Shown here: piece by piece, positions 14,826 to 63,686 of the stretch | Numbering within the stretch: position 1 is the first letter of the stretch | How the letters are laid out: each line of letters opens with the position of its first letter | Source of the DNA: an uncultured Bacteroidota bacterium | Lineage (GTDB): Bacteria > Bacteroidota > Bacteroidia > Bacteroidales > WCHB1-69 | Direction: 5' to 3' | Assembly: GCA_902786595.1 (NCBI GenBank) | Contig: CADADB010000002.1 | Location: 62,419 to 126,418 of the forward strand | DNA: 64,000 nucleotides | Notes under the pieces: generated by a model | What the model was told of the DNA's origin: nothing | The model's input: only the letters and a program-made list of their open reading frames with translations | The model's database searches: none | Program-made: the position numbers and the translations under genes

Positions 14826-14891
14826 TCATCGCCTTTCATCGCCTTTCATCGTCTCATCGTCTCATCGTCTCATCGCCTCATCGTCTCATCG
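14826..14891. repeat. Word repeat containing the thrE stop codon
   Basis: CATCGTCT/CATCGCCT words repeat about eight times. Read on the minus strand they are GATGAGAC units, and the ThrE stop TGA (14886-14888) is inside the first unit. Confidence 0.75.
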
Positions 14892-16124
14892 CCCCCGCGA
14901 GAGCAACCTCCCAATCCGGTTCTTCCCGTTCAACTCCGCCACCAAGATGATGCCGAAGGCGATGGCCACGGTGACCTTCAGGGCCGTGATGCCCGTGTGC
15001 AGGGCGGCGCCAAGCTGCTCGGAGACAACGTTGTAGGTGGTCCAGAAGATGCCCGCGCCCGGCACCAACGGGAAGATGCCGCAGATCAGATAGACCGTGA
15101 TCGGACATTTGCGCACGATGGCCAACACCATGGCCGTGAAGGTGACCAACACGGTGGCGAAGAAAACCACGTTGGCGACGGACAAGCCCGTGTGGTTCAC
15201 CAAGATCAGGTAGAGCAGCCACCCCAACATTCCGCATAAACCGCTGTCCAAGTAGTACTTACGGGGCACGCCGAAGAGCACGGCGAAGGCTACGGTGCCC
15301 ACGTAGGCGGCTAACAACTGCACGAACATCCCTGCCGTTTCGGGAGCGGCGGTCAACGTCTCCAAGTGCTGCATCGTGCCGCTGACGGCCGCGTCCAACA
15401 TGAACGCCAAAGCCACCCCCATGGAGATGCAGAAGAAGGTGAGCAGCGCGTCTAACAGTCGCGTGACACCGGCGATGTAGTCTTCGTGCGCCAGGTCGCG
15501 GATGCCGTTGGTGAAGGGCACCCCCGGAATCAGCGGGATGATGGCCCCGATGATCATGTTGCTGAGGTGCGTGCCCAGACCCAGTCGGAACATCACCCCG
15601 CAGAGCAAGGTGGCCAGCAAGCCGCCCGTGATGGCGCCCGCGATGCGCGAAAGGTGCCGGTAACCGACGAACAACATATAGACCCAGAGCACCAATCCGG
15701 CCACGAATGCCGCAATGCTGTCGGCGAAGCCGCCGCCGAAGATGATGCAGAAGGCCGCGCTGCCGAACGCGGAGGCCGCGATCTGCTCCCAAGCGGGCTT
15801 CGGGCGCATGGCGCGGATGGCCTTCAGCCGAGACTCCAACTGCTCGAGGTCGCACTTGCCCTCGGAAACTTCGCGGGAGAGCTGGTTCACCGCCACCACC
15901 TTGTCGAGACTCGCTCCTTTGATGGGGATGAACTTGGTGCGGGCGAACCCTTTCGCCGTGGCCATGATGCCGTTGCTGAGCACGAAGAAATTCTCGTCGT
16001 CCACGCCGTAGTGGCCGGCGATGCGCCGCATGGTCTCATCCACGCGTGAGATCTCCGCCCCGTTCTCCAAGAGGATCGCGCCGGCTTCGTAGGCCAGTTC
16101 CATGATTTTGTTTTGCTCGTCCAT
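14886..16124 (-). CDS. Threonine/serine exporter family protein (ThrE, fused YjjP-YjjB)
   Basis: 412 residues from MDEQNKIMELAYEAG; a further upstream ATG gives only nine extra residues. The N-terminal DUF1212 half (ENGAEISRVDETMRRI, FFVLSNGIMAT, TKFIPIKGASLDKV) and five hydrophobic helices are followed by a C-terminal ThrE_2/YjjB half with five more (VATVLVTFTAMVLAIV, then ICGIFPLVPGAGIF). The family exports small amino acids or succinate-like acids. Its own -7 box lies 25 bases upstream. It is followed directly by a word repeat that supplies the stop codon. Confidence 0.85.
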   Translation of the reverse strand: MDEQNKIMELAYEAGAILLENGAEISRVDETMRRIAGHYGVDDENFFVLSNGIMATAKGFARTKFIPIKGASLDKVVAVNQLSREVSEGKCDLEQLESRLKAIRAMRPKPAWEQIAASAFGSAAFCIIFGGGFADSIAAFVAGLVLWVYMLFVGYRHLSRIAGAITGGLLATLLCGVMFRLGLGTHLSNMIIGAIIPLIPGVPFTNGIRDLAHEDYIAGVTRLLDALLTFFCISMGVALAFMLDAAVSGTMQHLETLTAAPETAGMFVQLLAAYVGTVAFAVLFGVPRKYYLDSGLCGMLGWLLYLILVNHTGLSVANVVFFATVLVTFTAMVLAIVRKCPITVYLICGIFPLVPGAGIFWTTYNVVSEQLGAALHTGITALKVTVAIAFGIILVAELNGKNRIGRLLSRGR

Positions 16125-16148
16125 ATCTCGTATCTCCTTTCCAGTGTG

Positions 16149-16156
16149 CAAAAGTA
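16149..16156 (-). promoter_or_regulatory. -7 box of thrE
   Basis: CAAAAGTA on the plus strand (TACTTTTG on the minus strand), 25 bases before the start. Confidence 0.5.
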
Positions 16157-16182
16157 TGCAATTTACGAATACAAATTGTTCG

Positions 16183-16210
16183 GTAGAGACGTTTCAGGAA
16201 ACGTCTCTAC
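16183..16210. repeat. GTAGAGACG palindrome, copy 1
   Basis: Arms GTAGAGACGTTTC and GAAACGTCTCTAC around two bases (AG). It sits between the thrE promoter and the rplI terminator. Confidence 0.85.
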
Positions 16211-16215
16211 AAAAG

Positions 16216-16250
16216 ACAAAAAAAACGGCAGATCCGTTTGAATCTGCCGT
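16216..16250 (-). terminator. Intrinsic terminator of the S6-S18-L9 operon
   Basis: On the minus strand ACGGCAGAT ... ATCTGCCGT forms a 9-bp stem followed by eight or more T. It lies 22 bases after the rplI stop. Confidence 0.85.
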
Positions 16251-16271
16251 CGTCGATATGAATAAAATGAA

Positions 16272-16730
16272 TTATTCTGCTGTTTCGGGAACAACGTTGA
16301 GCTTGATCTCCACCTTGAAGTCGCGGTGCAGGTTCACCTGGGCGGTGTATTGACCCAACTCTTTGATGCGGTCTTCGCTGATGGCGATTTTGTGACGGTC
16401 GATTTCGATGTCGTGCTGGGCCTTGAGGGCTTCAGCGACCATGATGTTGTTCACAGAACCGAACAAAGTGCCGTTTTCAGAGGCCTTGGCGGGGATGTTG
16501 ACCTCGAGGCCTTCGATCTTGCCGGCAAGAAATTCAGCTTCCTTGCGGATCTTCTCTGCCTTGAAAGCGCGTTGTTTGATGGTTTCCGCCAACATTTTCT
16601 TCTTTGCCGGGGTAGCGAGTTCGGCATAACCTTGCGGAATGAGGTAATTGCGGGCATAACCGTCCTTCACCTTTACGAGGTCGTCGGCAAAACCCAGATT
16701 AGCTACGTCTTGTTTCAATATAACTTCCAT
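16272..16730 (-). CDS. rplI: 50S ribosomal protein L9
   Basis: 152 residues, close to the usual 148. The N-terminal rRNA-binding domain is unmistakable (MEVILKQDVANLGFADDLVK, then VKDGYARNYLIPQGYA). A long helix (residues about 40-75) leads to the C-terminal domain (ASENGTLFGSVNN, LGQYTAQVNLHRDF). Last gene of the S6-S18-L9 operon, 14 bases after rpsR, followed by a strong terminator. Confidence 0.97.
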   Translation of the reverse strand: MEVILKQDVANLGFADDLVKVKDGYARNYLIPQGYAELATPAKKKMLAETIKQRAFKAEKIRKEAEFLAGKIEGLEVNIPAKASENGTLFGSVNNIMVAEALKAQHDIEIDRHKIAISEDRIKELGQYTAQVNLHRDFKVEIKLNVVPETAE

Positions 16731-16744
16731 GACAAAATGCTTTT

Positions 16745-17017
16745 TTAGTTAGATTTTAAATTATCGGTGACGAACGGCAGAAGAGCCAGGTGACGGGCGC
16801 GTTTCACGGCCTGGGCCACTTTCTTCTGATATTTCAGGGAGGTGCCGGTCAGACGACGAGGCAGGATCTTGCCCTGTTCGTTCACGAATTTCTTCAAAAA
16901 TTCAGCATCCTTGTAGTCGATGTACTTGATGCCGCTCTTTTTGAAACGACAATATTTTTTCTTCTTGATGTCAACTGCTACGGGAGCAATGTATTTAATA
17001 TCGTTTTGCTGTGCCAT
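16745..17017 (-). CDS. rpsR: 30S ribosomal protein S18
   Basis: 90 residues. The core [20 protein letters not shown] and [20 protein letters not shown], then [12 protein letters not shown], is diagnostic. It binds with S6 on the small-subunit platform. It sits between rpsF and rplI, the standard order, four bases after rpsF. Confidence 0.97.
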
Positions 17018-17021
17018 AATC

Positions 17022-17432
17022 TTATGCTTCTACTTCGGTTTTGGGTTCTTCGTTAACTACTTCTTCAGCAACGGGTTGCTGCTCGGCCTGTTCGGCTTTC
17101 TGTTTGCGGTTGTTGCGTCTCTTCTCTGCGAAAGCGATGGCGTATTTGTCCATCGTCACGGTCAGGAAGCGGATGATACGCTCGTCGCGGCGGAATTGCA
17201 GTTCCAGCTCGCCAACCACGTTACCGTCGGCCTTGAATTCAAATAAATGATAAAATCCGGAGGACTTTTTCTGGATGGGGTATTCCAGCTTGCGCAGGCC
17301 CCAGTTCTCCTGGTGGACGATTTCCGCACCTTGATCGGTGAGAATCTTCTCAAACTTCTGTACCGTTTCCTTCATCTGTTCATCAGACAAAACGGGAGTC
17401 ATAATGAAAACGGTTTCGTAATGATTTGCCAT
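17022..17432 (-). CDS. rpsF: 30S ribosomal protein S6
   Basis: 136 residues from [20 protein letters not shown]. An upstream in-frame extension of 22 codons is rejected because it covers the -7 promoter region. The ferredoxin-like S6 fold is clear ([36 protein letters not shown]), and a charged Glu/Ala tail follows ([20 protein letters not shown]), as in other Bacteroidota. First gene of the operon. Confidence 0.97.
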
Positions 17433-17473
17433 ACTGTTTTTTAATTTATTATTTGTACTAAAATTTTGGGCGG

Positions 17474-17502
17474 CAAAAATACACTTTTTTCTTTTCACTC
17501 AA
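17474..17502 (-). promoter_or_regulatory. Promoter of the S6 operon
   Basis: The minus strand reads TTG, 18 bases, TATTTTTG (17474-17481). This is near the ideal -33/-7 spacing for Bacteroidales, with the start codon 42 bases on. Confidence 0.65.
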
Positions 17503-17581
17503 GTTGTTGAGTGAGATTTTTTTTCAACCATGAAAAAACAATTATGAATCATACATTTTAAATTGTGAATTGAAAAAATCG

Positions 17582-17589
17582 TATCTTTG
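17582..17589 (+). promoter_or_regulatory. -7 box of gapA
   Basis: TATCTTTG, 36 bases before the gapA start; a TTG lies 16 bases upstream. Confidence 0.6.
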
Positions 17590-17619
17590 CCCGTTTTTTG
17601 AACATCTCAAACTTAATAA

Positions 17620-18636
<1,017 letters not shown>

Positions 18637-18639
<3 letters not shown>

Positions 18640-18693
18640 CTTTTAGCTATTGGCCATTGGCTGTTAGCTAAAAGCCAAAAGCTAACAGCCAAT
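18637..18693. repeat. TAGCT-word repeat and long hairpin after gapA
   Basis: The repeat begins with the gapA stop TAG. ATTGGCTGTTAGCT (18656-18669) and its exact complement (18680-18693) form a 14-bp stem, which may act as a terminator or 3' end protector. Confidence 0.8.
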
Positions 18694-18732
18694 TCATAAA
18701 CTCATATTAATACACCATTAAATTCTTAAAAC

Positions 18733-18891
18733 ATGGAAAAGTACGTATGTGATTTGTGCGGTTACGTGTATGATCCCGAGGTCGGTGATCCCGACAACGG
18801 CATCGCCCCCGGCACCGCCTTTGAAGATCTCCCCTCCAACTGGACCTGCCCGATGTGTGGCGTGGACAAATCCAGTTTTTCGAAACAATAA
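18733..18891 (+). CDS. Rubredoxin
   Basis: 52 residues, full length for the family. The iron site is made of two CxxC pairs: [10 protein letters not shown] (Cys6, Cys9) and [11 protein letters not shown] (Cys39, Cys42). [11 protein letters not shown] and the aromatic residues Tyr4, Tyr11 and Trp37 pack around it. Rubredoxin carries single electrons, often to peroxide and superoxide reductases in anaerobes. It follows gapA but is separated by a strong hairpin. A neighbouring redox partner is not obvious, though hydrogenase maturation genes follow on the opposite strand. Confidence 0.96.
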
Positions 18892-18913
18892 TTCGGTTTG
18901 CGATATTTGTGAT

Positions 18914-18939
18914 GTAGGGGCGAATCGCATTCGCCCCAC
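18914..18939. repeat. GTAGGGGCGAAT palindrome, copy 1
   Basis: GTAGGGGCGAAT, three bases (CGC), then ATTCGCCCCAC. Second palindrome family; the other copy is at 60494-60521. Confidence 0.8.
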
Positions 18940-18964
18940 ATCAATTGCAAATCCAATAAAAAAC

Positions 18965-19002
18965 CAAGCGACCGTCCCCATAGAGACGACCGCTTTTGTT
19001 TT
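18965..19002 (+). terminator. Possible rubredoxin terminator
   Basis: AAGCG.CCGTC pairs with GACG..CGCTT (9 pairs with a two-base mismatch), then TTTTGTTTTA. Weak stem. Confidence 0.4.
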
Positions 19003-19012
19003 ATAAAAAATT

Positions 19013-19039: not shown

Positions 19040-19077
19040 ATCTATAATGTATGGAAAAAACAAAATGTTAAAGATTC

Positions 19078-19104
19078 AAGCCAAAAGCTAACAGCCAAAA
19101 GCTA
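19078..19104. repeat. AGCCAAAAGCTAAC word repeat containing the hydG stop
   Basis: GCCAAAAGCTAACAGCCAAA. On the minus strand the HydG stop TAG (19102-19104) opens the repeat TAGCTTTTGGCTGTTAGC. Confidence 0.75.
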
Positions 19105-20636: not shown

Positions 20637-20663
20637 GTCACACGTCACACGTCTTACGTCTTA
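20637..20663. repeat. GACGTAAGACGT word repeat containing the TM1266 stop
   Basis: Plus-strand CACACGTCTTACGTCTTA. On the minus strand the stop TAA (20661-20663) opens TAAGACGTAAGACGTGTGAC. Related words at 20589-20612 lie in front of hydG. Confidence 0.75.
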
Positions 20664-20909
20664 CGTCATTTTTGTGATTACCGCTTTAGTCATCACATTT
20701 GCGATTTTCCCTAAATTTCCGGAAAGCGAATTGATCTCATCAACTCCGCCTTCGACGATGAGGGAGATGACGGCCACGGGGCGGTCGTGGAAGGGCAGTC
20801 CTTGCCGCGCCAACACGATGCCCGAATGCGCGGAGATGACCTCGTTCACCTGCGCAGCCGCTGCTCTGTCTGACAATAATACCGTAATGGTGCCTATTCG
20901 CTTTTCCAT
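20661..20909 (-). CDS. TM1266-family iron-only hydrogenase system regulator
   Basis: 82 residues. The ACT-like fold signature is present: IGTITVLLSDRAAAAQVNEV, then ISAHSGIVLARQGLP and VAVISLIVEGGVDEINSLSG. Proteins of this family sit beside HydE/F/G in many anaerobes and are proposed to regulate [FeFe] hydrogenase expression; the mechanism is not proven. It is encoded just upstream of hydG on the same strand. Its -7 box is 71 bases before the start. Confidence 0.88.
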   Translation of the reverse strand: MEKRIGTITVLLSDRAAAAQVNEVISAHSGIVLARQGLPFHDRPVAVISLIVEGGVDEINSLSGNLGKIANVMTKAVITKMT

Positions 20910-20987: not shown

Positions 20988-21000
20988 TCATTTTTTTGAT

Positions 21001-22289: not shown

Positions 22290-23045
22290 ATGTCAATAAT
22301 TGTAAACAACGTTTCTAAGGTTTTCGGGGAGCAATATGCCCTCAACAAGGTCAGTTTTGAAGCCAAAAAAGGCGAGATTGTCGGTTTTTTAGGACCGAAC
22401 GGCGCCGGCAAGACCACTATGATGAAAATCATCACTGGATTGATTCCACCCACCGAAGGCGATGTCTCCGTTTGTGGACTTGACATCTGGAAGGATTCTC
22501 TGAAACTTCGGCAAATCATTGGTTACCTTTCCGAAGCGAATCCGCTCTACTATGATATGTATGTGCGTGAGTTTCTGGAATTTGTGGCCGGTGTTTTCCA
22601 TATCAAGGATAAAAAGAAAAGTGTTGATCATGTTATAGAGCTCACAGGGCTTACCCCTGAGCAGCACAAGAAAATCGGGGCATTGTCGCGCGGTTACAAG
22701 CAGCGTGTAGGCATCGCGCAGGCCCTCATCCACGACCCCGAAGTGCTCATTCTGGACGAGCCGACCACGGGTTTGGATCCGAACCAACTGATTGAAATCC
22801 GGGAACTTATTCGTTCATACGGGAAGAATCGTACGGTGCTGCTCTCCACTCACATCATGCAGGAGGTGCAGGCGATGTGCGACCACGTCATCATCATCAA
22901 CAAAGGAGAACTGGTGGCCGACACCCTGACCAAAGACCTCCATCTCCTGGCCGAAAAGGTCGGACTGAAAACCGCCGAAGACCTCGACGCTCTGGGCATG
23001 GAGCAGCTCTTCCACCGATTGACGATGAATGATGCGATGAAGTGA
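22290..23045 (+). CDS. gldA: ABC transporter ATP-binding protein, GldA-like
   Basis: 251 residues from MSIIVNNVSKVFGEQYALNK. Walker A GPNGAGKT (near 39-46), an ABC signature reading LSRGYKQRVGIAQA, and Walker B VLILDEPTTGLDP are present. RQIIGYLSEANPLYYDMYVR, then EFLEFVAG, matches GldA, the ATPase of the GldAFG complex tied to gliding in Bacteroidota. GldA is usually about 300 residues; the distal part here jumps from DTLTKDLHLLAEKV to a short tail, so a middle segment of the C-terminal domain seems missing. No gldF or gldG is adjacent. The last residues (MNDAMK) are encoded by a GATGA-word repeat. Confidence 0.75.
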   Translation: MSIIVNNVSKVFGEQYALNKVSFEAKKGEIVGFLGPNGAGKTTMMKIITGLIPPTEGDVSVCGLDIWKDSLKLRQIIGYLSEANPLYYDMYVREFLEFVAGVFHIKDKKKSVDHVIELTGLTPEQHKKIGALSRGYKQRVGIAQALIHDPEVLILDEPTTGLDPNQLIEIRELIRSYGKNRTVLLSTHIMQEVQAMCDHVIIINKGELVADTLTKDLHLLAEKVGLKTAEDLDALGMEQLFHRLTMNDAMK

Positions 23046-23098
23046 TGAAACGATGAAGCGATGATACGATGATACGATGAAGCGATGATACGATGAAA
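23026..23098. repeat. GATGAAAC/GATGATAC word repeat containing the gldA stop
   Basis: About eight 8-base units such as GATGAAGC and GATGATAC. The last codons and the stop TGA (23043-23045) of the GldA-like gene lie inside the repeat. Confidence 0.75.
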
Positions 23099-25371: not shown

Positions 25372-26532
25372 ATGGAAAAGAGAGATTACTATGAGGTGCT
25401 GGGTGTTTCAAAAGAAGCTTCAGCAGATGAGATAAAAAAAGCCTACCGAAAGAAGGCGATGCAGTACCACCCTGACCGCAATCCCGGCGATAAGGAAGCC
25501 GAAGAGAAGTTCAAGGAGGCGGCAGAGGCGTATGATGTGCTGAGCAATCCCGACAAGAAGGCGCGTTACGACCAATTCGGTCACGCCGGTATGGGTAATC
25601 AGGCCAGCGACTTCTCCGGCATGAATTTCAACGACATTTTCAGCCATTTTGCCGATATTTTCGGCGGGGGATTCGGTGGTGGATTTAGCGGCTTCAGTGG
25701 TTTTGGCGGCTTCGGCGGTGGCGGTCAGCAACGTCGCGTGCGCAAAGGCGGAGACATCCGCATCAAGGTGAAGCTGAATTTGGAGGAGGTGGCCGCACCC
25801 ATCGAGAAGAAGGTCAAGATCAACAAACAGGTAGTGTGTCCGCATTGTAACGGTACGGGCGCGAAAGATCCGAACAGCGTCACAACTTGTCCCGACTGTC
25901 ACGGCAGCGGCCAGGTGGTGCGCCAGCAACGCAGTATGTTCGGTATCATCCAGCAGGCATCTGTATGTCCGAAGTGCGGCGGCACGGGCGAGGTCATCAA
26001 GGATCCGTGTCCGCACTGCCATGGAAACGGTACGGTGTCGGGCGAGGAAATCATCACGATCAACATCCCTGCCGGTGTCGATAATGGCATGCAGATGACG
26101 GTGCAGCAGAAAGGTCACGCAGCGCAGCGCGGTGGCGTGAACGGCGACCTGCTCGTCGTTTTCGAAGTAGCCGATCATGAGATTTTCGAGCGCGACGGCA
26201 ACAACTTGTACCTCAACTACTACATCAGCATCCCGCAGGCGGCGTTGGGCGCCTCTGTGGAAATTCCCACGCTCACGGGCAAAGCCAAGATCAAGATTGC
26301 CCCGGGCACGCAGAGCGGACAAATCCTGCGTCTGCAAGGCAAGGGACTGCCGCAGGTCAACTCACGCATTGTCGGTGACCTCATTGTCAACGTCAACGTG
26401 TGGACTCCGAAATCCCTCACTCGGGAAGAAAAAGCGATGCTGGAGCAGCTAAGCACACACGAAAATTTTGTGCCGAAACCCGGAAAAAACGACAAGAGCG
26501 TTTTCAACCGAGTACGGCAATTCTTCCAGTAG
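25372..26532 (+). CDS. dnaJ: Chaperone protein DnaJ
   Basis: 386 residues with the full type I layout: J domain ([23 protein letters not shown] in YHPDRNPGD), a Gly/Phe region ([18 protein letters not shown]), four zinc-finger repeats CxxCxGxG ([32 protein letters not shown]) at about 150-225, and the C-terminal substrate-binding domain. It stimulates DnaK. Downstream of grpE in one operon. The stop TAG (26530-26532) is the first arm of a GTAGAGACG palindrome. Confidence 0.97.
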
Positions 26533-26556
26533 AGACGTTTCAGGAAACGTCTCTAC
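26529..26556. repeat. GTAGAGACG palindrome supplying stops to dnaJ and rsmE
   Basis: Arms GTAGAGACGTTTC and GAAACGTCTCTAC. The left arm's TAG ends dnaJ (plus) and the right arm's TAG on the other strand ends rsmE (26553-26555). A convergent, bidirectional terminator-like stem. Confidence 0.88.
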
Positions 26557-29196: not shown

Positions 29197-29246
29197 GACG
29201 TATGACGTATGACGTATGACGTATGACGTATGACGTATGACGTATG
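29197..29246. repeat. (GACGTAT)7 array between divergent genes
   Basis: Seven tandem copies of GACGTAT between the ABC-F start and its promoter, so it would be in that gene's 5' leader. Confidence 0.9.
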
Positions 29247-29252
29247 AGGCGG

Positions 29253-30112: not shown

Positions 30113-30158
30113 ACGTCACACGTCTTCTTACGTCTTACGTTGCACGTCATACGTCTTA
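30113..30158. repeat. ACGTCTTACGT word repeat containing the ridA stop
   Basis: CACACGTCTTCTTACGTCTT and further ACGTC words. On the minus strand the stop TAA (30156-30158) opens the repeat TAAGACGTATGACGTGC. Confidence 0.75.
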
Positions 30159-30684: not shown

Positions 30685-31824
30685 ATGAGTTATAAAGGAA
30701 TTGGGAAAAAGCTGGCAATGATTTTTTGTACGTTAACGTTGTTGTTTTCGTGCCAAAATCTTATTGCTTCCGAAAATGACTCCGAAGTGTTTGATGCCGG
30801 TCCGTTCATCATAGAGCATGTCATCGACAGCTATGGCTGGCACATCTGCGGCAGCGGTGAAAAGAGCGTTACCATCCCCTTGCCCGTCATCTTGTTTGAC
30901 GAGGGCCGCCCCGTGGTCTTCCTGTCCAACAAATTCCACCACGGCGAGGCCGCCTATAACGGTTACGCCATGGGATGGGAGGAAAACACCAAAGGCCGAA
31001 TCGTGAAACTCGAAGGCAACTATTCCGATTACACCGGTCACCTTGAAGAGGGTGAAGCATACGCGAACCACGTCTGCAAATGGGACATCTCCATCACCAA
31101 GAACGTCTGTGCCCTGCTCATTTCTATCATCTTGATAACCTGCATTTTCCTGTCCATAGCGAAACGTTACCGCGAGCATCCCGATGAGGTGCCGAGTGGT
31201 TTGCAGGCCCTCGTGGAACCGCTCATCGTGTTCATCCAGGACGAGGTGATTACCCCGTCATTGGGCAAAAACTCCAATAAATACGCGCCCTATCTGCTCA
31301 CGCTGTTCTTCTTCATTTTCCTGAACAACATGCTGGGCATTGTCCCGATCTTCCCGGGCGGCGCGAACCTCACCGGAAACATCGCCGTTACCGGTATTTT
31401 GGCCCTCATCACCTTTTTCGTGACCACCTTCTCCTCCGGCAAGGAGTACTGGAAAGACATCTTCAACACGCCCGGAGTGCCGTGGTGGCTGAAGGTTCCG
31501 CTGCCACTCATGCCGTTGGTGGAGACCATCGGTATTTTCACGAAGCCGTTCGTGTTGATGGTGCGACTTTTCGCCAACATCACCGCCGGCCACATCATCA
31601 CGCTGGCATTCGTCTCGTTAATCTTCATCTTCGGTCAGATGAACCCGGTCATTGGCTGGGCAGTCTCTCCGGTTTCTATTTTCTTCTACATCTTCATGGG
31701 TCTGATGGAGCTCTTGGTCGCGTTCATCCAGGCGTTCGTGTTCACGTTGTTAAGCGCGATGTACATCGGCATGGCCATCGGTGAGGAGGAACACGAAGAG
31801 AAAACAGCAGTAGTGGAGGCGTAA
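30685..31824 (+). CDS. atpB: F0F1 ATP synthase subunit a
   Basis: 379 residues from MSYKGIGKKLAMIFCTLTLL; a GTG at 30643 would add 14. The first 30 residues form a signal-like helix, then a roughly 110-residue extra domain precedes the five-helix core, a layout common in Bacteroidota. The stator arginine lies in MVRLFANITAGHI. With the c-ring it forms the proton path. First gene of a truncated operon atpB-atpE-atpF that lacks the F1 genes. No good -7 word is seen upstream. Confidence 0.92.
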   Translation: MSYKGIGKKLAMIFCTLTLLFSCQNLIASENDSEVFDAGPFIIEHVIDSYGWHICGSGEKSVTIPLPVILFDEGRPVVFLSNKFHHGEAAYNGYAMGWEENTKGRIVKLEGNYSDYTGHLEEGEAYANHVCKWDISITKNVCALLISIILITCIFLSIAKRYREHPDEVPSGLQALVEPLIVFIQDEVITPSLGKNSNKYAPYLLTLFFFIFLNNMLGIVPIFPGGANLTGNIAVTGILALITFFVTTFSSGKEYWKDIFNTPGVPWWLKVPLPLMPLVETIGIFTKPFVLMVRLFANITAGHIITLAFVSLIFIFGQMNPVIGWAVSPVSIFFYIFMGLMELLVAFIQAFVFTLLSAMYIGMAIGEEEHEEKTAVVEA

Positions 31825-31832
31825 ACAGTTGA

Positions 31833-31864
31833 CCCTTAACCCTTAACCCTTAAACCTTAAACCT
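31833..31864. repeat. CCCTTAA word repeat after atpB
   Basis: CCTTAACCCTTAACCCTTAA words between atpB and atpE. Confidence 0.6.
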
Positions 31865-32799: not shown

Positions 32800-34023
32800 A
32801 TGAAAAAACTATCCGTATTATTGGTAACAGCCGCATTGCTTGCCTGCAATGTCTCTTTCGCCCAAGACAAAGAGAAAACGGAAGAGGAAGGCTACATCTT
32901 CAAAATCACGAAAGAGTTGCCCGTCACTTCTGTCAAGGACCAAAACCGTGCCGGCACATGCTGGTGCTACTCCGGTTTGGCATTCCTCGAATCTGAACTT
33001 CTCCGTATGGGAAAAGGCGAGTATGACCTTTCGGAAATGTACATTGTGGCAAACACTTACAATGACAGAGCCAAAGCAGCCGTCCGTATGCACGGCGACG
33101 TTTCCTTCTCACAAGGCGGTTCTTTCTACGATGTGATTTACGGTATGAAGGCGTTCGGTCTGGTTCCTGAAGCCGAGATGCGTCCGGGTGCCGCTTATGG
33201 TGACACGCTTTCTGATCACGGCGAACTTTCCGACATCACCGATGCCATCGTGGATGCCATCGCCAAGAAAGAGCACAAAAAACTGCAATGTGACGCCAAC
33301 GGCAATCCCCTTTGGTTGAAGGCCGTTTCTGCTGTCCATGAGATTTACCTCGGCCAATGCCCGAAGGAATTCTCCTACAAGGGCGTGACCTACACCCCGC
33401 AATCCTTCTACAACTCACTGGGTCTCAATCCTGATGATTATGTCTCCATCACTTCCTACACGCATCATCCTTTCTATGAGAAATTCGTGCTGGAAATCCA
33501 AGACAACTGGCGTTGGGGTCAATCCTACAATGTGCCGTTGGATGAAATGATGCAGATTTTCGACTATGCCATCGACAATGGTTACACCATCGCTTGGGGT
33601 TCCGACGTTTCCGAACCCGGTTTCCGCAACAACATCAAGAACGGTTTTTGTGTGCTTCCCGACCTCGAGGCCAAAGCTCAGGTTGGCAGCGACATGGCTC
33701 ACTGGACTGGTTTGACGACCACCGAGCGTAATAAAGAGTCCCAGACCAAACCCACGCCGCAACGCTGGGTCACGCAAGAAGAGCGCCAAGCCGCTTACGA
33801 CAACTGGGAGACCACCGACGACCACGGCATGTTGATCTACGGCAAGGCCACCGACCAAATGGGTAACGAATACTACATGGTGAAGAATTCTTGGGGCAAA
33901 TACGGAAAATATGACGGTATGTTCTATGTCTCTAAAGCATTCGCCCGCTACAAAACCATGAACATCCTCGTCCACAAGGACGGTATCCCGAAAGATATCA
34001 AGAAGAAATTGGGCATTAAATAG
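32800..34023 (+). CDS. Secreted C1-family (PepC/bleomycin hydrolase-like) aminopeptidase
   Basis: 407 residues. A signal peptide (MKKLSVLLVTAALLACNVSF, cut near AQDK) sends it out of the cytosol. The papain-like triad is visible: Gln48 and Cys54 in DQNRAGTCWCYSG, His342 in DDHGMLIYG, and Asn363 in VKNSWG. The pattern and length match bleomycin hydrolase/PepC cysteine aminopeptidases, though cytosolic PepC is usually somewhat longer. Its own promoter overlaps atpF. The stop TAG opens a TAGCT-word repeat. Confidence 0.93.
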   Translation: MKKLSVLLVTAALLACNVSFAQDKEKTEEEGYIFKITKELPVTSVKDQNRAGTCWCYSGLAFLESELLRMGKGEYDLSEMYIVANTYNDRAKAAVRMHGDVSFSQGGSFYDVIYGMKAFGLVPEAEMRPGAAYGDTLSDHGELSDITDAIVDAIAKKEHKKLQCDANGNPLWLKAVSAVHEIYLGQCPKEFSYKGVTYTPQSFYNSLGLNPDDYVSITSYTHHPFYEKFVLEIQDNWRWGQSYNVPLDEMMQIFDYAIDNGYTIAWGSDVSEPGFRNNIKNGFCVLPDLEAKAQVGSDMAHWTGLTTTERNKESQTKPTPQRWVTQEERQAAYDNWETTDDHGMLIYGKATDQMGNEYYMVKNSWGKYGKYDGMFYVSKAFARYKTMNILVHKDGIPKDIKKKLGIK

Positions 34024-34054
34024 CTTATTGGCTTTTGGCTATTAGCTGTTAGCC
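34021..34054. repeat. TAGCT-word repeat containing the peptidase stop
   Basis: TAGCTTATTGGCTTTTGGC, then ATTAGCTGTTAGCC. It begins at the stop codon. Confidence 0.75.
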
Positions 34055-34069
34055 TATTTATCCCTTTAT

Positions 34070-44613: not shown

Positions 44614-44652
44614 ACCGCTTCAATAACCCATAACCAATAACCCATCACCATT

Positions 44653-46029
44653 CTAAAGATTCAGATTCTTCGCAATGGTAGGATCCGTTTTTTTCGCACC
44701 CCACACTTTGGCGGATATATCGTGTGCCTCTTTGGGTGTGAGGAGGTCGTAGTGCTCCATGGCGCGCTGCACGAAGATACATTGCTGGATTTGGGCTTTA
44801 TCCGTGACAACGGCTTCGGCAAGGGCTTTGCAAGAAGGATAGCCGCAAAGGTGGCAATCCACTTGCGGCAGGTTCTGGTTGATTTCGAAGGCCCGTTTCA
44901 TCTTCTGCATGGCCGCTGCCACATTGTCGTCGATTTTGTCCATGGAGCGTGGCTCCACCTCACTGACATGCCGTTTATCGGCCAGATAGTCGAAATAATT
45001 GAGCAGGTCGTTGTCTTCGCTATCTACTTCGTCAGAGCACTTTTGCATCCGTTTGCGTTGCCGTTCAATCATAAGGAAACGGTTCTCAGCCGTGAGGATG
45101 CCGCCGCAACAGCTGCCATCGCAAGCACGAAGTTCCAGGAAATCAATATCTTGGATATCTTCGTCTTCCACTTTTTCCAGAAATTCAGACACATTGTGGA
45201 TATCGTCAATGGCCAGATTCCGTCCTGTGCGCAGCATCTTGGTTTCCCCGCCAGTGAGCGGGTAGGTGATACTGGCTTTTGACAGGCGGTGAAAGCGTGC
45301 CGACTCGTCACACATCTGGTATTCACCCGTCTTAATCACACGCAACACCTTGCTGTATAAATAGTTCATGTTAATCACACCTGACACGGGTGATTTTTCC
45401 TCACCCACAGGGCTCTTGATGGCGGCGATTTTCGCGGCACACGGCGACACGTAGAAAATGCCGATATCCTCTTCTTTGATCCCTCTTTCCGTCAAGCTTT
45501 TCTTGATGTATTCGGCGGTCATGTCAAAAGGTGCCTTCACGAGGTAGATGTTATCGACCAAAACGGGGAATTTCACCTGGATAAGGCGCACAATGGCTGG
45601 ACAGAATGACGAGATAACCGGTTTCTCGTAAGGAACATTCCCGCTTTCGAGGTCTCTGCGGATATATTCCTTAATGAAATCAACGCTTTTCTCCACTTCA
45701 TAGATATCTTTGAAGCCGAGATGGAGCAATGCCGAAAGAATGGTGCGCTCACGTATTTTCTCCTCAAATTGGGCCAGAAAGATGGACGGCACCAGCAACA
45801 CGGGGTATTTATAGTCGTAAACCGTCTGGAAGTCGTCTTGCTCAATGTAAATGGCGTTCATCGGGCATGCCACATAGCATCGACCGCAATCGACACAGCG
45901 GTTCGGGTCAAGCACCGGATGTCCGTCTTCTACGTGTATTGCGCTCGTAGGGCACACGCCCGTGCAGTGGGAACAACCAATACAGAGGTCATATTTGAAT
46001 TTTAATGCGTGGTGGAAATCTTCGGCCAT
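44653..46029 (-). CDS. Sensory-type [FeFe] hydrogenase (group C-like)
   Basis: 458 residues. Two [4Fe-4S] ferredoxin motifs (Cys16/19/22/26 and Cys45/48/51/55) precede a degenerate H-cluster domain: SSFCPAIVRLI (Cys143; classic TSCxPxW changed), SPCAAK (Cys197) and RACDGSCCGG (Cys303, Cys307/308). A C-terminal CHLCGYPSC ... C motif (Cys392, 395, 400, 417) adds a cluster. The altered loops and the kinase neighbours fit hydrogen-sensing HydS-like proteins better than catalytic hydrogenase. HydG at 19.1 kb could mature it. Confidence 0.88.
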   Translation of the reverse strand: MAEDFHHALKFKYDLCIGCSHCTGVCPTSAIHVEDGHPVLDPNRCVDCGRCYVACPMNAIYIEQDDFQTVYDYKYPVLLVPSIFLAQFEEKIRERTILSALLHLGFKDIYEVEKSVDFIKEYIRRDLESGNVPYEKPVISSFCPAIVRLIQVKFPVLVDNIYLVKAPFDMTAEYIKKSLTERGIKEEDIGIFYVSPCAAKIAAIKSPVGEEKSPVSGVINMNYLYSKVLRVIKTGEYQMCDESARFHRLSKASITYPLTGGETKMLRTGRNLAIDDIHNVSEFLEKVEDEDIQDIDFLELRACDGSCCGGILTAENRFLMIERQRKRMQKCSDEVDSEDNDLLNYFDYLADKRHVSEVEPRSMDKIDDNVAAAMQKMKRAFEINQNLPQVDCHLCGYPSCKALAEAVVTDKAQIQQCIFVQRAMEHYDLLTPKEAHDISAKVWGAKKTDPTIAKNLNL

Positions 46030-46198: not shown

Positions 46199-46247
46199 AC
46201 TTCACATTCCTCATTCCTCAGTCCCCAGTCCTCAGTCTTCCGTCCTA
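46199..46247. repeat. CAGTCC-word repeat containing the anti-sigma kinase stop
   Basis: CAGTCCCCAGTCCTCAGTC words; on the minus strand the stop TAG (46245-46247) opens the run. Further ACTTGAGACTTGAG words at 46090-46113 lie before the hydrogenase start in a 215-base gap. Confidence 0.65.
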
Positions 46248-47153: not shown

Positions 47154-47203
47154 TTTAAACCACAAACCGTAAACCGTAAATCGTAAACCGTAAACCGTAA
47201 ATT
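47154..47203. repeat. (AAACCGT)n heptamer array in a 5' leader
   Basis: About six copies of AAACCGT or near matches between promoter and start codon of the next gene. It is the 5' counterpart of the stop-codon repeats. Confidence 0.75.
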
Positions 47204-47716
47204 ATGAACATATTAGGAATTTGTATCTTAGCAGGAATAGTGGTGATGGTGGCAGGTGCTGCCTATATTACCAAGATGGTGATGGAGGCGAAAGCGAAAA
47301 TCGCAGCTCTGGAGAATAGCAAGGCCAACCGTGCAGTGTTGTTGCCGTTGCGGTTGCAGGCATACGAGCGCATGGCCCTTTTCCTTGAACGTATTGACCC
47401 GAACCAACTGGTGATGCGCATCCACACCGCTGGACTGACGGTCTCGCAAGAACAGAACCTTCTGTTGACAGCCATCCGCAGCGAGTTCGAGCATAACCTT
47501 TCGCAACAGATTTATATTTCCGACCCGGTCTGGGAGAAGGTCTGTGACGCCAAGGCAGACATTGAAGCCATCATCAACACCGTGGCCGCCGATTATGATA
47601 AAGATGCCGAAAGCCGTGAATTTGCGGAGACAGTCTTGGCCGTGACCTCCCAAAAACCTGTGGTGGAATTGGCCATTCAGATATTGAAAACCGATATGCA
47701 AAAATGGGCGTATTAG
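47204..47716 (+). CDS. Hypothetical membrane-anchored protein
   Basis: 170 residues. A single N-terminal membrane helix (MNILGICILAGIVVMVAGAA) is followed by an alpha-helical soluble domain (RLQAYERMALFLERIDPNQL, VWEKVCDAKADIEAIINTVA). I recognise it only as a conserved-looking Bacteroidota protein, without a function. The AAACCGT array lies in its leader, and the stop TAG opens a TAGCT-word repeat. Confidence 0.72.
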   Translation: MNILGICILAGIVVMVAGAAYITKMVMEAKAKIAALENSKANRAVLLPLRLQAYERMALFLERIDPNQLVMRIHTAGLTVSQEQNLLLTAIRSEFEHNLSQQIYISDPVWEKVCDAKADIEAIINTVAADYDKDAESREFAETVLAVTSQKPVVELAIQILKTDMQKWAY

Positions 47717-47796
47717 CTATTAGCTGTTGGGTATTAGCTATTGGCCTTTGGCTTTAACCGTTAGCTAAAAGCCAATAGCCAAAAGCTAAAAGCCAC
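47714..47796. repeat. TAGCTATT-word repeat containing the 47204 gene's stop
   Basis: TAGCTATTAGCTGTTGGG and inverse words AGCCAATAGCC at 47770-47796. Runs up to the pruA promoter. Confidence 0.75.
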
Positions 47797-49561: not shown

Positions 49562-49570
49562 TCTGTCTTA

Positions 49571-49616
49571 ATAGCTAACAGCCAATAGCCAATAGCTAAC
49601 AGCCAATAGCCAACTA
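49571..49616. repeat. AGCCAATAGC-word repeat containing the atpG stop
   Basis: AATAGCTAACAGCCAATAGC words. On the minus strand the atpG stop TAG (49614-49616) opens TAGTTGGCTATTGGCTG. Confidence 0.78.
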
Positions 49617-50495: not shown

Positions 50496-50497
50496 AG

Positions 50498-52696: not shown

Positions 52697-52802
52697 TTAG
52701 CTATTGGCTATTTGCTATTGGCGTTTAGCCTACAAACCTATAACCCTATAACCAACAAACAAAAAGCTTCAATAACCAATAACCCATAACCCATAACCAT
52801 TA
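52697..52802. repeat. TAGCTATTGGC and ATAACCC word repeats up to the pyrE stop
   Basis: First TTAGCTATTGGCTATTTGC, then AACCCATAACCCATAACC at 52781-52798. On the minus strand the pyrE stop TAA (52800-52802) opens TAATGGTTATGGGTTATGGG. Confidence 0.75.
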
Positions 52803-53463: not shown

Positions 53464-53491
53464 GTAGAGACGTTTCAGGAAACGTCTCTAC
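53464..53491. repeat. GTAGAGACG palindrome giving the YitT copy 2 stop
   Basis: Arms GTAGAGACGTTTC and GAAACGTCTCTAC. Its right-arm TAG, read on the minus strand (53488-53490), is the stop codon of the YitT gene. Confidence 0.88.
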
Positions 53492-60439: not shown

Positions 60440-60484
60440 TTCACTTCGCTGAAGCGCTATAAGATTTTTCCGTACATTTATTAA
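60439..60484 (+). pseudogene. Remnant 3' end of a second steroid reductase gene
   Basis: GTTCACTTCGCTGAAGCGC ... TTATTAA encodes FTSLKRYKIFPYIY and stop, identical in protein to 56332-56376. All base differences between the two (AAG CGC for AAA AGG, TTT for TTC, and so on) are silent. The upstream body of this copy is gone. Confidence 0.8.
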
Positions 60485-60493
60485 GATATTATG

Positions 60494-60521
60494 GTAGGGG
60501 CGAATGATTATTCGCCCCTAT
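60494..60521. repeat. GTAGGGGCGAAT palindrome, copy 2
   Basis: GTAGGGGCGAAT, then GATT, then ATTCGCCCCTA. Intergenic. Confidence 0.8.
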
Positions 60522-60585
60522 GGCAATTAAAAATTCACTGTTTATAAGTAATTTTTACCACAATAAAATACACCTTTGAAAGTTG

Positions 60586-60593
60586 TATCTTTG
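60586..60593 (+). promoter_or_regulatory. -7 box of the 60629 gene
   Basis: TATCTTTG, 35 bases before the start. Confidence 0.55.
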
Positions 60594-60628
60594 TTCGTTT
60601 GTAAAATAGGTTATAATCAGTGAACTAT

Positions 60629-63600
60629 ATGAAGATAATCAAAACGGCCCTGTTACTGTTGATAACAGGCATTTTCACCATTCCGTTTGCTTCCGCGCAA
60701 CGCACGGAGAACTTCAAATCACCGCAGTATGAATACCAGACCGCGGTGGATTTGTTCAACAAGGAGAAGTACGGCTCCGCACAACAATATTTCAAATATG
60801 TCTATGAAAGCACCGACGACAAGCAGCATGACTTGAAAACCAACTCACTGTTCTATCAGGGCGTGTGTGCGGCCAAACTCGACAACCAGGATGCCGGCTA
60901 CCTGCTGCAGTCGTTCATCGACCGCTATCCCGTGCATACCTCCGTGCCGGAAGCGCGCTATTACCTGGGCCGTTTTTATTTCGCCCGCAAGAACTACAAG
61001 AAGGTGATTGCGCAGTTTGACGAAATCTACGAGTCGGAAATCCAACCCGAAAATGTACAGGAGTATCATTTCAAGAAAGGGTATTCCTATTTTATGACGG
61101 AGGATTACGACAATGCCAAGATGATGTTCCGCAAAGCGCGCGAAGAGGAGGGACCTTACAAGGACCGCAGTCTATACTATCTCGCTTATATGGCGTATCA
61201 GGCCGAACAATACGATGCCGCGCTGGAGGATTTCCTCATCCTGAAGGACAATCCTGAACTAAAAAGCGAAGTTCCTTACTTCCTCACACAGATCTATTTC
61301 AAAGAGGAACAATACGAAAAGGTGTTGGAGGTGGCTCCTGAAACGGAAATCGTGAAGGATAAAAACCTGGCGCAGGTGGCCCGCTGCAAAGCCCTGTCCT
61401 ACTACAACCAAAACCAGTATGAGGAAGCTGCCGAGAATTTCGACAAAATCAAGGATAACAAACTGATAACCCTCGACCGTAACGACTGGTTTGCGAAAGG
61501 ATTCACCAACTATCGCGTGCTGAAATACACCGAAGCCATCTCCGATTTCTCCCGCGCCGCCAACGACAAGAACCCAGACGCGATGACCCAGCAATGCTAT
61601 TTCCTCATCGCCGACTGCTACATGAAGACGGCCCAGCGCACCCTCGCAGCCCAAAGTTTCAAAGAAGCGTCCAAATATAACTTCGATCCCACTATCAAGG
61701 AAGAAGCCCTTTTCAACTACGCAAAACTGCAATGCGAGACCTCCACGAGTCCGTTCAATAATGGTATTGAAGCACTGCAGGATTACCTGAACCAGTATCC
61801 GCATGCCCAGCACAGCGATGAAGCTTCCGAGTATCTGTCCCGAATCTATCTTTCCACCAAGAATTACCAGGCAGCCATCAATTCCATTGAGAAACTGAAG
61901 ACTAAAAACCCTTCCATCCTGAAAGCGTATCAGCGATGCACCTTCAACCGCGCTCTTGAATTGATCAACAATAAGAATTATCAGGATGCCCTCTCTTTGT
62001 TGAACAAGACATTGTCTTCCCCGTCGGATAAGAAAATCCACCAAGATGCACTATATTGGAAGGCGGAGGCCCAATACCGTAACGAACAGTACAAAGACGC
62101 GTACTATTCATTCCAAACTTATCAGGGTTCGGATAGGGCTGCTGCTAATGAGTATTATGTAAATTCTTATTATTCACTTGGTTATGCTGCTCTGAAATTG
62201 AAAAGATACAAGGATGCAGGAAACCAGTTCAAGACTTATCTCAACAAGTCAACCCGTTCTGAAGATTTGGATATTCAGGCAGATGCCTCTGCCCGTCTGG
62301 CGGATTGCTATTTCATGCAGCTCGACCTGCCGAATGCCATCAAGTATTATGACCAGTGTGAACGTTTGGGGCAAGCTAACGCCGACTATGCAGTCTATCA
62401 ATTGGCCAAATGTTATGGCTACCAGAAGAACAACAGCAAAAAAATCCAAACCCTGGAGAGACTCTTGAATTCTTATGGTTCATCAAGTTATAAAGATGAT
62501 GCGGAGTTTGACTTGGCTGTGACCTATCACACGCAGAATGATTATTCGAGTGCCATTTCCGCCTACAAGAATTTTATCAAAAACCATCCGAAGAGCCAGC
62601 ATATCCGTCAGGCGCACACGCGTTTGGCGCAGGCCTACCTGAACAGCGACAACCAGCAGATGGCCATCTCCACCTACAAATATGTGGTGGAAACTTTCCC
62701 TGGTTCGCAGGAAGCCAAGGACGCCTTGGCCAATTTGGAAACCATCTACACGGAAAACGGCAACACCAGCGAGTTTTTTGACTATGTGCGTTCCAAGAAC
62801 ATGAACATTTCCGCAGACCGTCAGGATTCCATCGCTTTCAAAGCGGCGGAGACAAAATACAACCGTGGTGACTGCGAGGCCTCCATTGCCGCTTGCCAGG
62901 ATTATATCCGCCAGTTCCCGAACGGCTCCTTTGTGGCAAAAGCCCACTTCTACAAGGGAGAATGTGAGTACGGCATGCGTCGCTATGATGACGCACTGGC
63001 TGACTATGAGGCGATTATCAAGAAATACAAAACGGAATACAATGTGACTGCCTTGCATAAAGCCGCTTCTATATTATATAATGACAAACAATATGCCAAG
63101 GCGTTGACCTATTTCAACAAGCTGATGGAGAATACCACGGCGGAAGAGGAAATCATCTATGCCAACAACGGTGCTATGCGGTGCGCCTATTTCCTGAAGG
63201 ATTACCGTTCGGCGTTGACCAGTGCCGAGAATATCATCCGCGCCAATCAGCCCGACCAGGATCTGCTTTCGGAGGCATTGCTGATTGCCGGTAATTCCGC
63301 ACTGGAACTCAAGGAGATAGAGACGGCGAAGAACTACTATAGCCGGCTTATGCCGAAGGGAAGCAATGACCTTTGCGCCGAGGCCGCCTACCATCTGGCC
63401 GACATAGCGCTCAATCACGACAAGAACCTCGATGATTGCGAAGCCCGTATCAAAGCCATTCTCGGTAGCGACTACTCTTCCGAATACTGGTATGCCAAGA
63501 CATTCATCCTTTATGGAGATCTTTACAAAGCCAAAGGTAACTACTTCCAAGCCCGCCACACCTACCAAAGTATCGTCGATAACTATGCCGGCGAGGACTT

Positions 63601-63652
63601 GGTGAAATTGGCGCTGGCGAAAATCGCGGAAGTCGATGCACTGGACAAGTAG
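60629..63652 (+). CDS. Large secreted TPR protein
   Basis: 1,007 residues from MKIIKTALLLLITGIFTIPF; a GTG three codons earlier is possible. Signal peptide cut near ASAQRT. The rest is almost entirely tetratricopeptide repeats (about 20), such as KYGSAQQYFKYVYEST, GVCAAKLDNQDAGYLLQSFI, EEQYEKVLEVAPETE and TFPGSQEAKDALANLETIYT. It should lie in the periplasm and act as a scaffold. The next gene, an outer membrane protein, starts 40 bases later, suggesting an envelope complex. The stop TAG opens a TTGATAATGG word repeat. Confidence 0.92.
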   Translation: MKIIKTALLLLITGIFTIPFASAQRTENFKSPQYEYQTAVDLFNKEKYGSAQQYFKYVYESTDDKQHDLKTNSLFYQGVCAAKLDNQDAGYLLQSFIDRYPVHTSVPEARYYLGRFYFARKNYKKVIAQFDEIYESEIQPENVQEYHFKKGYSYFMTEDYDNAKMMFRKAREEEGPYKDRSLYYLAYMAYQAEQYDAALEDFLILKDNPELKSEVPYFLTQIYFKEEQYEKVLEVAPETEIVKDKNLAQVARCKALSYYNQNQYEEAAENFDKIKDNKLITLDRNDWFAKGFTNYRVLKYTEAISDFSRAANDKNPDAMTQQCYFLIADCYMKTAQRTLAAQSFKEASKYNFDPTIKEEALFNYAKLQCETSTSPFNNGIEALQDYLNQYPHAQHSDEASEYLSRIYLSTKNYQAAINSIEKLKTKNPSILKAYQRCTFNRALELINNKNYQDALSLLNKTLSSPSDKKIHQDALYWKAEAQYRNEQYKDAYYSFQTYQGSDRAAANEYYVNSYYSLGYAALKLKRYKDAGNQFKTYLNKSTRSEDLDIQADASARLADCYFMQLDLPNAIKYYDQCERLGQANADYAVYQLAKCYGYQKNNSKKIQTLERLLNSYGSSSYKDDAEFDLAVTYHTQNDYSSAISAYKNFIKNHPKSQHIRQAHTRLAQAYLNSDNQQMAISTYKYVVETFPGSQEAKDALANLETIYTENGNTSEFFDYVRSKNMNISADRQDSIAFKAAETKYNRGDCEASIAACQDYIRQFPNGSFVAKAHFYKGECEYGMRRYDDALADYEAIIKKYKTEYNVTALHKAASILYNDKQYAKALTYFNKLMENTTAEEEIIYANNGAMRCAYFLKDYRSALTSAENIIRANQPDQDLLSEALLIAGNSALELKEIETAKNYYSRLMPKGSNDLCAEAAYHLADIALNHDKNLDDCEARIKAILGSDYSSEYWYAKTFILYGDLYKAKGNYFQARHTYQSIVDNYAGEDLVKLALAKIAEVDALDK

Positions 63653-63686
63653 TAATTGATAATGGATAATTGATAATTGATAATTG
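63650..63686. repeat. TAATTGATAATGG word repeat containing the TPR stop
   Basis: TAGTAATTGATAATGGATAA and so on. It begins with the stop codon and runs to six bases before the next start. Confidence 0.75.

Follow-up and report, generated by a model that had tools for sequence, protein, structure and literature searches.

In a 64,000-nucleotide stretch of the 2.84 Mb draft genome G000 of an uncultured Bacteroidales bacterium (contig C2, positions 62419-126418; hereafter the window), short degenerate tandem repeats, mostly of 7-nucleotide (nt) words, stand at or directly after the stop codons of many genes. We examined these heptad arrays in the window, in the genome around it and in related genomes. 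The recurrence of the same word families, the unit number, the strand polarity, the position at gene edges, the differing occupants of orthologous stops and the existence of array-free relatives of the hydG locus were observed directly. The explanation that we prefer, and to which we give about an even chance, is that the arrays are small dispersed elements which were copied whole and retained at gene edges, where they sometimes supply the stop codon, and which did not grow from the gene's own end.

Genome-wide counts were made on 864 kb (30%) of G000, comprising 672 stops, with a home-made gene caller; the genomes used for comparison (G020, G006, G010, G016, G022 and others) are drafts. An array was called flush when its start lay within 8 nt of a stop, and 102 such arrays were found in G000. 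The nearest named relatives of the source bacterium are from ruminant guts. For gapA, the closest named matches (97%) were two Bacteroidales bacteria, one uncultured and one from yak abomasum, and the next named match (88%) was a Bacteroidales bacterium from water-buffalo rumen.

Placement of the arrays at stop codons

Direct reading of the window confirmed a degenerate tandem repeat at or directly after all 12 stops that had been named in an earlier note on this DNA. In the first 28 nt past the stop, self-identity at a lag of 7 (lag 8 for thrE and the ABC ATPase gene) was higher than in all 1000 shuffles at 11 of the 12 stops; for the gene beginning at 47204, the lag-7 identity only tied the shuffle maximum. 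The note had added that the stop is in each case part of the first repeat word, which holds for part of the stops and is too strong as a universal statement. One period on, the full stop codon was repeated at four of the 12 stops (thrE, gapA, TM1266 and the 47204 gene), two of its three bases matched at five, and one or no base matched at three (46245, atpG and the TPR gene), where the word only abuts the stop.

When Tandem Repeats Finder (TRF) was applied to 55 window stops with a score of at least 34, an array was found downstream of 11, nine of which started within 8 nt of the stop. The gapA, hydG, ridA and C1 peptidase repeats fell below this cut-off, and the TPR gene, the last one, lay outside the set of 55. 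Two further window stops with arrays, at 31824 and 44653, were absent from the earlier list. Pfam agreed with most gene names given there (ThrE, TM1266-like, RidA (Ribonuc_L-PSP), C1 peptidase, HATPase, DUF7935, TPR, ATP synthase gamma and a PyrE-like phosphoribosyltransferase) and recognized the gldA-like gene only as an ABC ATPase; its support covers the named genes except gapA and hydG. The arrays are as follows.

14824-14893, minus strand: arrays of an 8-nt word (GACGATGA) and an adjoining 10-nt word over the TGA stop of thrE (14886-14888), found by TRF; lag-8 identity 0.90, stop recurring 3/3; present in G020 and G006, absent in G010.
18637-18692, plus strand: GCT-family heptads and an inverted copy at the TAG stop of gapA; 12 congeneric loci compared.
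19080-19104, minus strand: three GCT-family units at the TAG stop of hydG (19102-19104); array-free relatives exist.
20637-20668, minus strand: GAC-family heptads over the TAA stop of the TM1266-like gene (TRF, Pfam and lag identity).
23023-23098, plus strand: array of an 8-nt word (ATGAAGCG) over the TGA stop of the ABC ATPase gene (23043-23045); the G020 frame ends later, inside its own array.
30126-30158, minus strand: GAC-family heptads over the TAA stop of ridA; the stop in G020 and G006 is TAG, with the GCT family.
31832-31864, plus strand: ACCCTTA array 7 nt past the TAA stop of the 30685-31824 gene; different sequence in G020.
34021-34058, plus strand: GCT-family heptads at the TAG stop of the C1 peptidase gene; G020 has TAA there and lacks the array.
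44621-44655, minus strand: GGTTATN element at the TAG stop of the 44653-46029 gene.
46208-46247, minus strand: GGACTGA-type heptads past the TAG stop of the HATPase gene; other sequence in their place in G020 and G010.
47156-47201, minus strand: start-side counterpart, a TAAACCG array with its G-richer strand antisense, ending 2 nt before the ATG at 47204.
47710-47751, plus strand: GCT-family heptads over the TAG stop of the DUF7935 (47204) gene.
49570-49616, minus strand: GCT-family array directly past the TAG stop of atpG; in G010, the stop is TAA and the array is absent.
52770-52802, minus strand: four-unit GGTTATN element directly past the TAA stop of pyrE, with the ends AAT...TGAAG.
63650-63686, plus strand: TAATTGA/TAATGGA array directly past the TAG stop of the TPR gene.

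Across the 864 kb, period 7 accounted for 192 of the 239 intergenic arrays with a TRF score of at least 40, as against 6 of 34 arrays in coding DNA at the same cut-off, where periods 12 and 9 together made up 26. A period-7/8 array lay downstream of 180 of the 672 stops, compared with 2, 4, 4, 0 and 4 arrays in five shuffles of the downstream sequence. The array started within 8 nt of the stop in 102 of these 180 and was not flush in the other 78, beginning at 9-13 nt in one only. When spacers of at least 20 nt were considered, 101 of 179 arrays were flush, and random placement gave means of 35-66 with a largest single draw of 81, the expectation varying with the number of nt reserved for the next gene. 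In roomy spacers, 51 of 103 were flush for 11.2 expected, and convergent spacers with one array and room had it flush with either stop in 13 of 16 cases (5.0 expected). For co-directional spacers with 80 nt set aside for the next gene and 40 nt or more free, 3.0 flush arrays were expected and 13 of 17 observed (the largest of 5000 draws was 9); setting aside 100 nt and leaving 20 nt free raised the expectation to 5.6, and the observed 13 of 17 then lay within the range of the 5000 draws (maximum 14). The stop-flush peak held at every TRF score cut-off from 30 to 60, and no such peak was seen for periods 5, 6 and 9-12 (2 of 14 within 8 nt).

Arrays of periods 6-8 were flush in 43 of 77 cases in G020, 5 of 7 in G010 and 4 of 7 in G016. 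Other genomes were poor in downstream arrays of these periods: G022, of the same genus, had them at 5 of 71 stops, G024 at 2 of 67, G029 at 2 of 75 and G030 at 0 of 80, so that G022 and these three genomes of other families together had 9 in 293, one of the nine being flush. Among eight arrays examined in contigs of other taxa, one was flush with a stop: in L107, a Salinivirgaceae contig, a period-7 array (1924-1954) with its G-richer strand sense begins 1 nt past the open reading frame (ORF) 33-1922. The seven others lay at least 12 nt from the nearest long ORF on either side.

The comparison of repeat starts with random placement that the earlier note had itself put forward as a possible refutation thus came out for enrichment at stops, over 30% of G000 and part of G020. 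Its more general proposal, that a process places such repeats at gene ends or selection keeps them there, is supported by the same placement counts.

Word families, unit number and polarity

When a 201-base query over the gapA stop was searched in G000, at least 51 places including the query itself were matched (40 of 112 first-look candidates were scored), and the other 50 matched inside the repeat only. About 12 word families account for most arrays and recur at unrelated genes. For the family-based counts (polarity, stop codon, unit number), the families were picked by eye among stop-flush arrays; they overlap at their edges, and their labels are not always distinct words. In a typical element, a 7-nt word is repeated four times in tandem (about 28 nt); one family uses an 8-nt word, often in a longer run. 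Counting only runs of three or more units, 93 of 196 arrays in G000 had four, 62 had three and 16 had five.

Letter tables were built from 164 arrays near ten chosen words, of 202 period-7 TRF rows at the same score. In the clearest families, the word contains five to six fixed and one to two free letters. The GGTTATN word has GGTTAT as its fixed part, followed by T, G or A in 42, 40 and 19 percent; the word of the GCT family is [G/A]GCT[A/T/G]TT, and the GGCAA, GATAAT and GRTTTRC words likewise have fixed and free letters. Adjacent units of GGTTATN, GCT, GGCAA and GRTTTRC arrays differed at about 46-60% of free letters and at 0-10% of fixed letters. The GGTTATN arrays had four units in 32 of 38 cases and were never longer. 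In 35 copies of this element, AAT stood before the array and TGAAG after it, each letter being kept in 80-100%, and the 5' end was within 12 nt of a gene in 27 copies and the 3' end in one. When the last unit and the right flank were used as an anchor (33 copies), the three upstream units kept their fixed letters in 85-100% and their free letters in 36-45%. Many arrays look like discrete elements. Exact matches to the GCT word (overlapping, both strands) ranged from 0 (for example in G007 and G022) to 288 (G051) among 40 congeners, from which it follows that this family spread or vanished in single lineages.

Since the families were picked by eye, the claims on polarity rest on base counts only. 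Within 8 nt of stops, the G-richer strand was in the mRNA for 99 arrays and the C-richer strand for 12; within 8 nt of starts, the corresponding numbers were 12 and 36. In convergent spacers, the G-richer strand was directed away from the nearer gene by 15 to 1. When arrays were taken by word family, 131 of 191 had the 5' end of the G-richer strand no more than 15 nt from a gene (90 at stops, 41 at starts) and 18 had the 3' end there, where uniform placement predicted 45.4 for either end. The 5' ends are therefore drawn to genes and the 3' ends kept away from them. With at least 60 nt of room, the 5' end was at a gene in 85 and the 3' end in 5 of 141 arrays, for 17.9 expected, and in G020 the counts were 56 and 10 of 89. 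In divergent spacers, 4 of 15 arrays were flush for 1.7 expected.

Spacers free of arrays had no G excess past stops (G 0.196, C 0.188), and before starts G was slightly below C (0.124 versus 0.155). Most of the flush arrays, 93 of 102, were one-armed (G-rich 79, C-rich 13, even 1), a complementary second arm being detected by the cut-off in nine; the polarity is therefore not merely that of the outer arms of hairpins. An explanation by the replication strand was rejected, as the arrays were G-rich in the mRNA for plus-strand (52 of 61) and minus-strand genes (35 of 39) alike. On the start side, the polarity could stem from avoidance of words that are G-rich or resemble starts ahead of the start codon. 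The polarity on the stop side is left unexplained by any measurement made.

As a separate observation, the most regular period-7 array of the window, with about seven perfect GACGTAT copies at 29197-29247, lies upstream of the 27291-29174 gene and begins 22 nt from its start.

Occupants of orthologous stops and supply of the stop codon

When orthologous genes of G000 and G020 were compared, 158 of 181 pairs aligned to the last residue on both sides, and 33 of the 113 such pairs with a G000 spacer of at least 30 nt were unrelated in the first 15 nt past the stop. Orthologous stops with unchanged protein ends carried other families, other palindromes or nothing, and different families occupied one and the same stop in the two genomes, for example at ridA, C3_48201 and C3_155560. 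Where flush arrays were found in both genomes, 17 of 22 pairs shared a family label; of the remaining five, two had near-identical words. As to a possible attraction of arrays to particular sites, eight of the 33 swapped pairs had a flush array in G000 and two of these eight also had one in G020, numbers that are too few to judge. The idea of a free slot, in which only the stop side would be unconstrained, found no support: in 18 array-free spacers that differ in length, a small sample, identity decayed similarly from both ends.

The stop codon was tied to the word family (permutation p 0.0014). TAG was used with the GCT family in 9 of 12 cases, TGA with GATGAGAC in 9 of 12 and TAA with GATAATT in 6 of 8. 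Furthermore, the stop was repeated exactly one period on in 28 of the 102 flush arrays (permutation mean 12.5, maximum 23), and stop codons in all three frames were present in 52 of them, compared with 30 if the arrays were reversed and with 19 of 232 array-free genes. Across the genus, hydG and ridA were compared by eye at 30 loci per gene, so that not all congeners are represented at each stop: all 17 loci with GCT words had TAG and 39 of 42 others had TAA. This tally comprises 29 readable hydG loci of 30 and 30 ridA loci; the species are not independent, and one hydG locus has barely one unit.

Comparison of hydG with its array-free relatives, among them L225 with a 100% identical protein, placed the left boundary of the array inside or right after the stop codon, and the downstream block (TAACATTTTG...) stays in place in these relatives. 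For thrE and the ABC ATPase gene, the array extends into the last codons and the protein ends of the relatives differ by one or two residues. Altogether, it is suggested that the stop codon is sometimes supplied by a small repeat without change of the protein. Joint replacement of the stop and its flank (18 of 36 versus 1 of 40) was dropped as a proof, because third codon positions of the swapped genes were equally diverged.

Palindromes were also found at stops. One of the form GTAGAGACG...CGTCTCTAC, between convergent genes at window positions 26529-26556, contains the TAG stop of both. A pattern search in the 864 kb gave 33 such palindromes, and eight gene stops lie in seven of them. Another copy, at 53464-53491, provides the TAG stop of the 53488-54429 gene; it is not intact in G020 and is replaced by other sequence in G010. 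A different palindrome (CCCCCCTTGGCCCCCC...GGGGGG) stands at or just past the gapA stop in L024, L025 and L026, where G000 has heptads, and a similar one follows the TM1266-like gene in G020, again at a place of heptads in G000.

Origin of the arrays and known heptamer repeats

According to the explanation that we prefer, whole elements would be copied to new sites, and insertions would survive where no gene is broken. An element end with its own stop codons, in all three frames in about half of the arrays, could be tolerated at the last codon, and later change would take place partly by whole units. The G-richer strand mostly has its 5' end against the gene edge and the rest pointing outward, sense past stops and antisense before starts; at stops, the element adjoins or overlaps the stop codon and supplies it in part of the cases.

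Several results weigh against this explanation. Neither an enzyme nor a move of the elements was seen, and the number of Y1 transposases of the RAYT type (0-6 matches per genome) does not follow the number of GCT words in the 40 congeners. The start edge is weak: in 62 roomy co-directional spacers with one array, the array was flush with the stop in 31 and with the start in 10, for 6.4 expected each. Clearly defined flanks were found in GGTTATN alone. The division into fixed and free letters was blurred in GACKTRA, GAATGNN and AACCYTT and absent in GGACTGA (five arrays), and GATGANRC and GAATGNN have long and variable unit numbers, as expected of slippage. In G020, three units (32 of 89) were nearly as common as four (37 of 89). 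With regard to the stop codon, the GAC family has no preferred stop (6 TAA, 5 TAG, 4 TGA), and the actual stop trinucleotide occurred inside its own array in 52 of 102 cases, within the range of the permutations (mean 40.3, maximum 56). In swapped pairs, the third stop base was 0.58 diverged, compared with 0.45-0.88 at the third positions of the last ten codons. Since it is no more diverged than those positions, swapping is by itself no proof that the element brought the stop along. Finally, GRTTTRC words contain a sense stop codon in none of 18 matches, and in 16 of 18 if reversed, yet lie sense at stops by 6 to 0, and stop supply cannot therefore be the sole cause of the polarity. Nor does stop supply account for the weaker polarity before starts.

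The chief rival, which we regard as a serious possibility but on balance doubtful, is that the arrays are functional cis elements kept by selection, either four-unit sites bound by a protein on DNA or RNA or boundaries facing outward from genes. In 28 alignable ortholog spacers, fixed letters differed at 10 of 601 positions and free letters at 38 of 206, compared with 46 of 705 in the flanking spacer and 1727 of 7126 at the third codon positions of those genes. This conservation supports a constraint on the word, and the support stops short of proof: the fixed-letter count is biased downwards because the G000 units were picked by a pattern demanding fixed letters, and unit exchange by itself would raise the differences at free letters alone. 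The four-unit preference common to unrelated words would also fit such sites, and a parallel exists in the ribbon-helix-helix (RHH) ParB protein, for which at least four contiguous heptads are described as necessary (PMC9499535). Against this reading stand the gain and loss of arrays at orthologous stops and the presence of a flush array in G020 in only two of the eight swapped pairs with one in G000; the many word families would also demand many specificities.

Growth in place, by which polymerase slippage would lengthen any duplication of 7 nt close to a gene end until selection stops it at the last codon, is disfavoured and appears unlikely. A few bases of coding sequence do belong to the arrays (lag-7 identity about 0.45 at -6 to -4 of the stop), indels inside period-7 arrays were of 7 or 14 nt in 6 of 15 cases as against 1 of 47 in array-free flanks, and a polymerase-footprint idea for heptamers is quoted in PMC4692102. 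However, slippage does not predict the preference for four units in G000, the recurrence at unrelated genes of words and, in one family, of flanks, or variation confined to one or two letters in the clearest families. It is also at variance with the polarity of 99 to 12 and with arrays that are flush even where room remains.

It is very improbable that the arrays are intrinsic terminators or hairpins of the 3' untranslated region (3' UTR) placed past genes. An inverted second arm is present in some of them (gapA and the 47204 gene; nine of 102 are two-armed), but a T run follows directly in only five of 102, and among spacers of 60 nt or more, 21 of 79 with flush arrays had a T run, versus 88 of 232 without arrays. 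RNA folding did not clearly separate the classes (mean z -1.7 for flush, -2.4 for far and -1.6 for no arrays, up to 60 each). The suggestion that 3' UTR structure accounts for the repeats thus lacks support as a full account, with 41 of 131 gene-edge elements lying antisense at starts. Local templating by the stop-proximal sequence of the gene, also raised earlier, would fit the in-phase recurrence of the stop above permutation and is refuted by the sharing of about 12 families among unrelated genes and by the differing families at single orthologous stops such as ridA, C3_48201 and C3_155560.

Bacterial heptamer repeats have been noted for years, and the passages drawn on here from two papers of 2015 leave their role open (PMC4692102, PMC4679880). 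No description of a Bacteroidales case was found in the titles and abstract openings of the open-licence papers that our literature searches listed. The GTAG/CGTC-tagged repetitive extragenic palindromic (REP) elements are, like the present arrays, short dispersed repeats near gene 3' ends; the ends of GTAG REPs often provide a TAG stop, and GTAG REPs are hypothesised to move by REP-associated tyrosine transposases (RAYTs) (PMC3733652). The REP elements are palindromes, whereas the arrays are tandem heptads, without a second arm by the cut-off in 93 of 102 flush cases. In the parS site of pSM19035, one RHH ParB dimer binds one 7-bp WATCACW heptad (PMC9499535). These contiguous 7-bp words with degenerate end letters resemble ours, but parS is a plasmid partition site and the arrays are dispersed over the chromosome.

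The TAACTGA repeats described by MacGregor in 2015 from Beggiatoaceae, cyanobacteria and some Bacteroidetes share more features: they are intergenic heptamers with stop codons in three frames of one orientation, which limit them to gene ends, and they overlap gene ends and show 7-nt indels (PMC4679880). In contrast to the present arrays, they consist of one word and in the main genome lie mostly just upstream of start codons (PMC4679880). No TAACTGA direct repeat was found on either strand of the 864 kb of G000.

The closest likeness is to the GGGAATC and GGGGA(C/T)T heptamers of Xanthomonas and Nostoc, for which Rehm et al. (2015), in the parts of the article used here, report a four-unit preference and discuss G-quadruplexes while leaving the function open (PMC4692102). 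Both sets have period 7, are intergenic, prefer four units, lie sense near or overlapping stops and antisense before starts, and sometimes form inverted pairs (PMC4692102); the xanthomonad heptamers have five conserved letters (PMC4692102), and the clearest families here five to six. Distances for those repeats are reported in 50-bp classes (PMC4692102). Two xanthomonads are reported to keep 83% of the repeats in common (PMC4692102), whereas orthologous stops here carry other families or none. Their words are of the G-quadruplex type (PMC4692102), while about 12 words occur here, and a three-G motif was present in none and a two-G motif in 20 of the 102 flush arrays.

The present arrays extend what is known of heptamers, since many words that lack a three-G quadruplex motif follow the rule too. 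It is conceivable, if rather unlikely, that heptad elements form a single general class spanning three or more phyla, with a word-independent grammar (a 7-nt unit, about four units, one to two free letters, the G-richer 5' end at the gene edge and facing out), made or read by one machinery or physical constraint. If so, the constraint might be, for example, a four-unit protein assembly or a polar boundary acting on polymerases or ribosomes that leave a gene, and the explanation of the Xanthomonas and Nostoc repeats by quadruplexes would become a special case. A single stop at which several relatives have different words or none offers a natural series for testing function. Since the same placement, polarity and four-unit preference are found in another phylum with many words devoid of the three-G quadruplex motif, the comparison argues against G-quadruplexes as the sole cause of these features.

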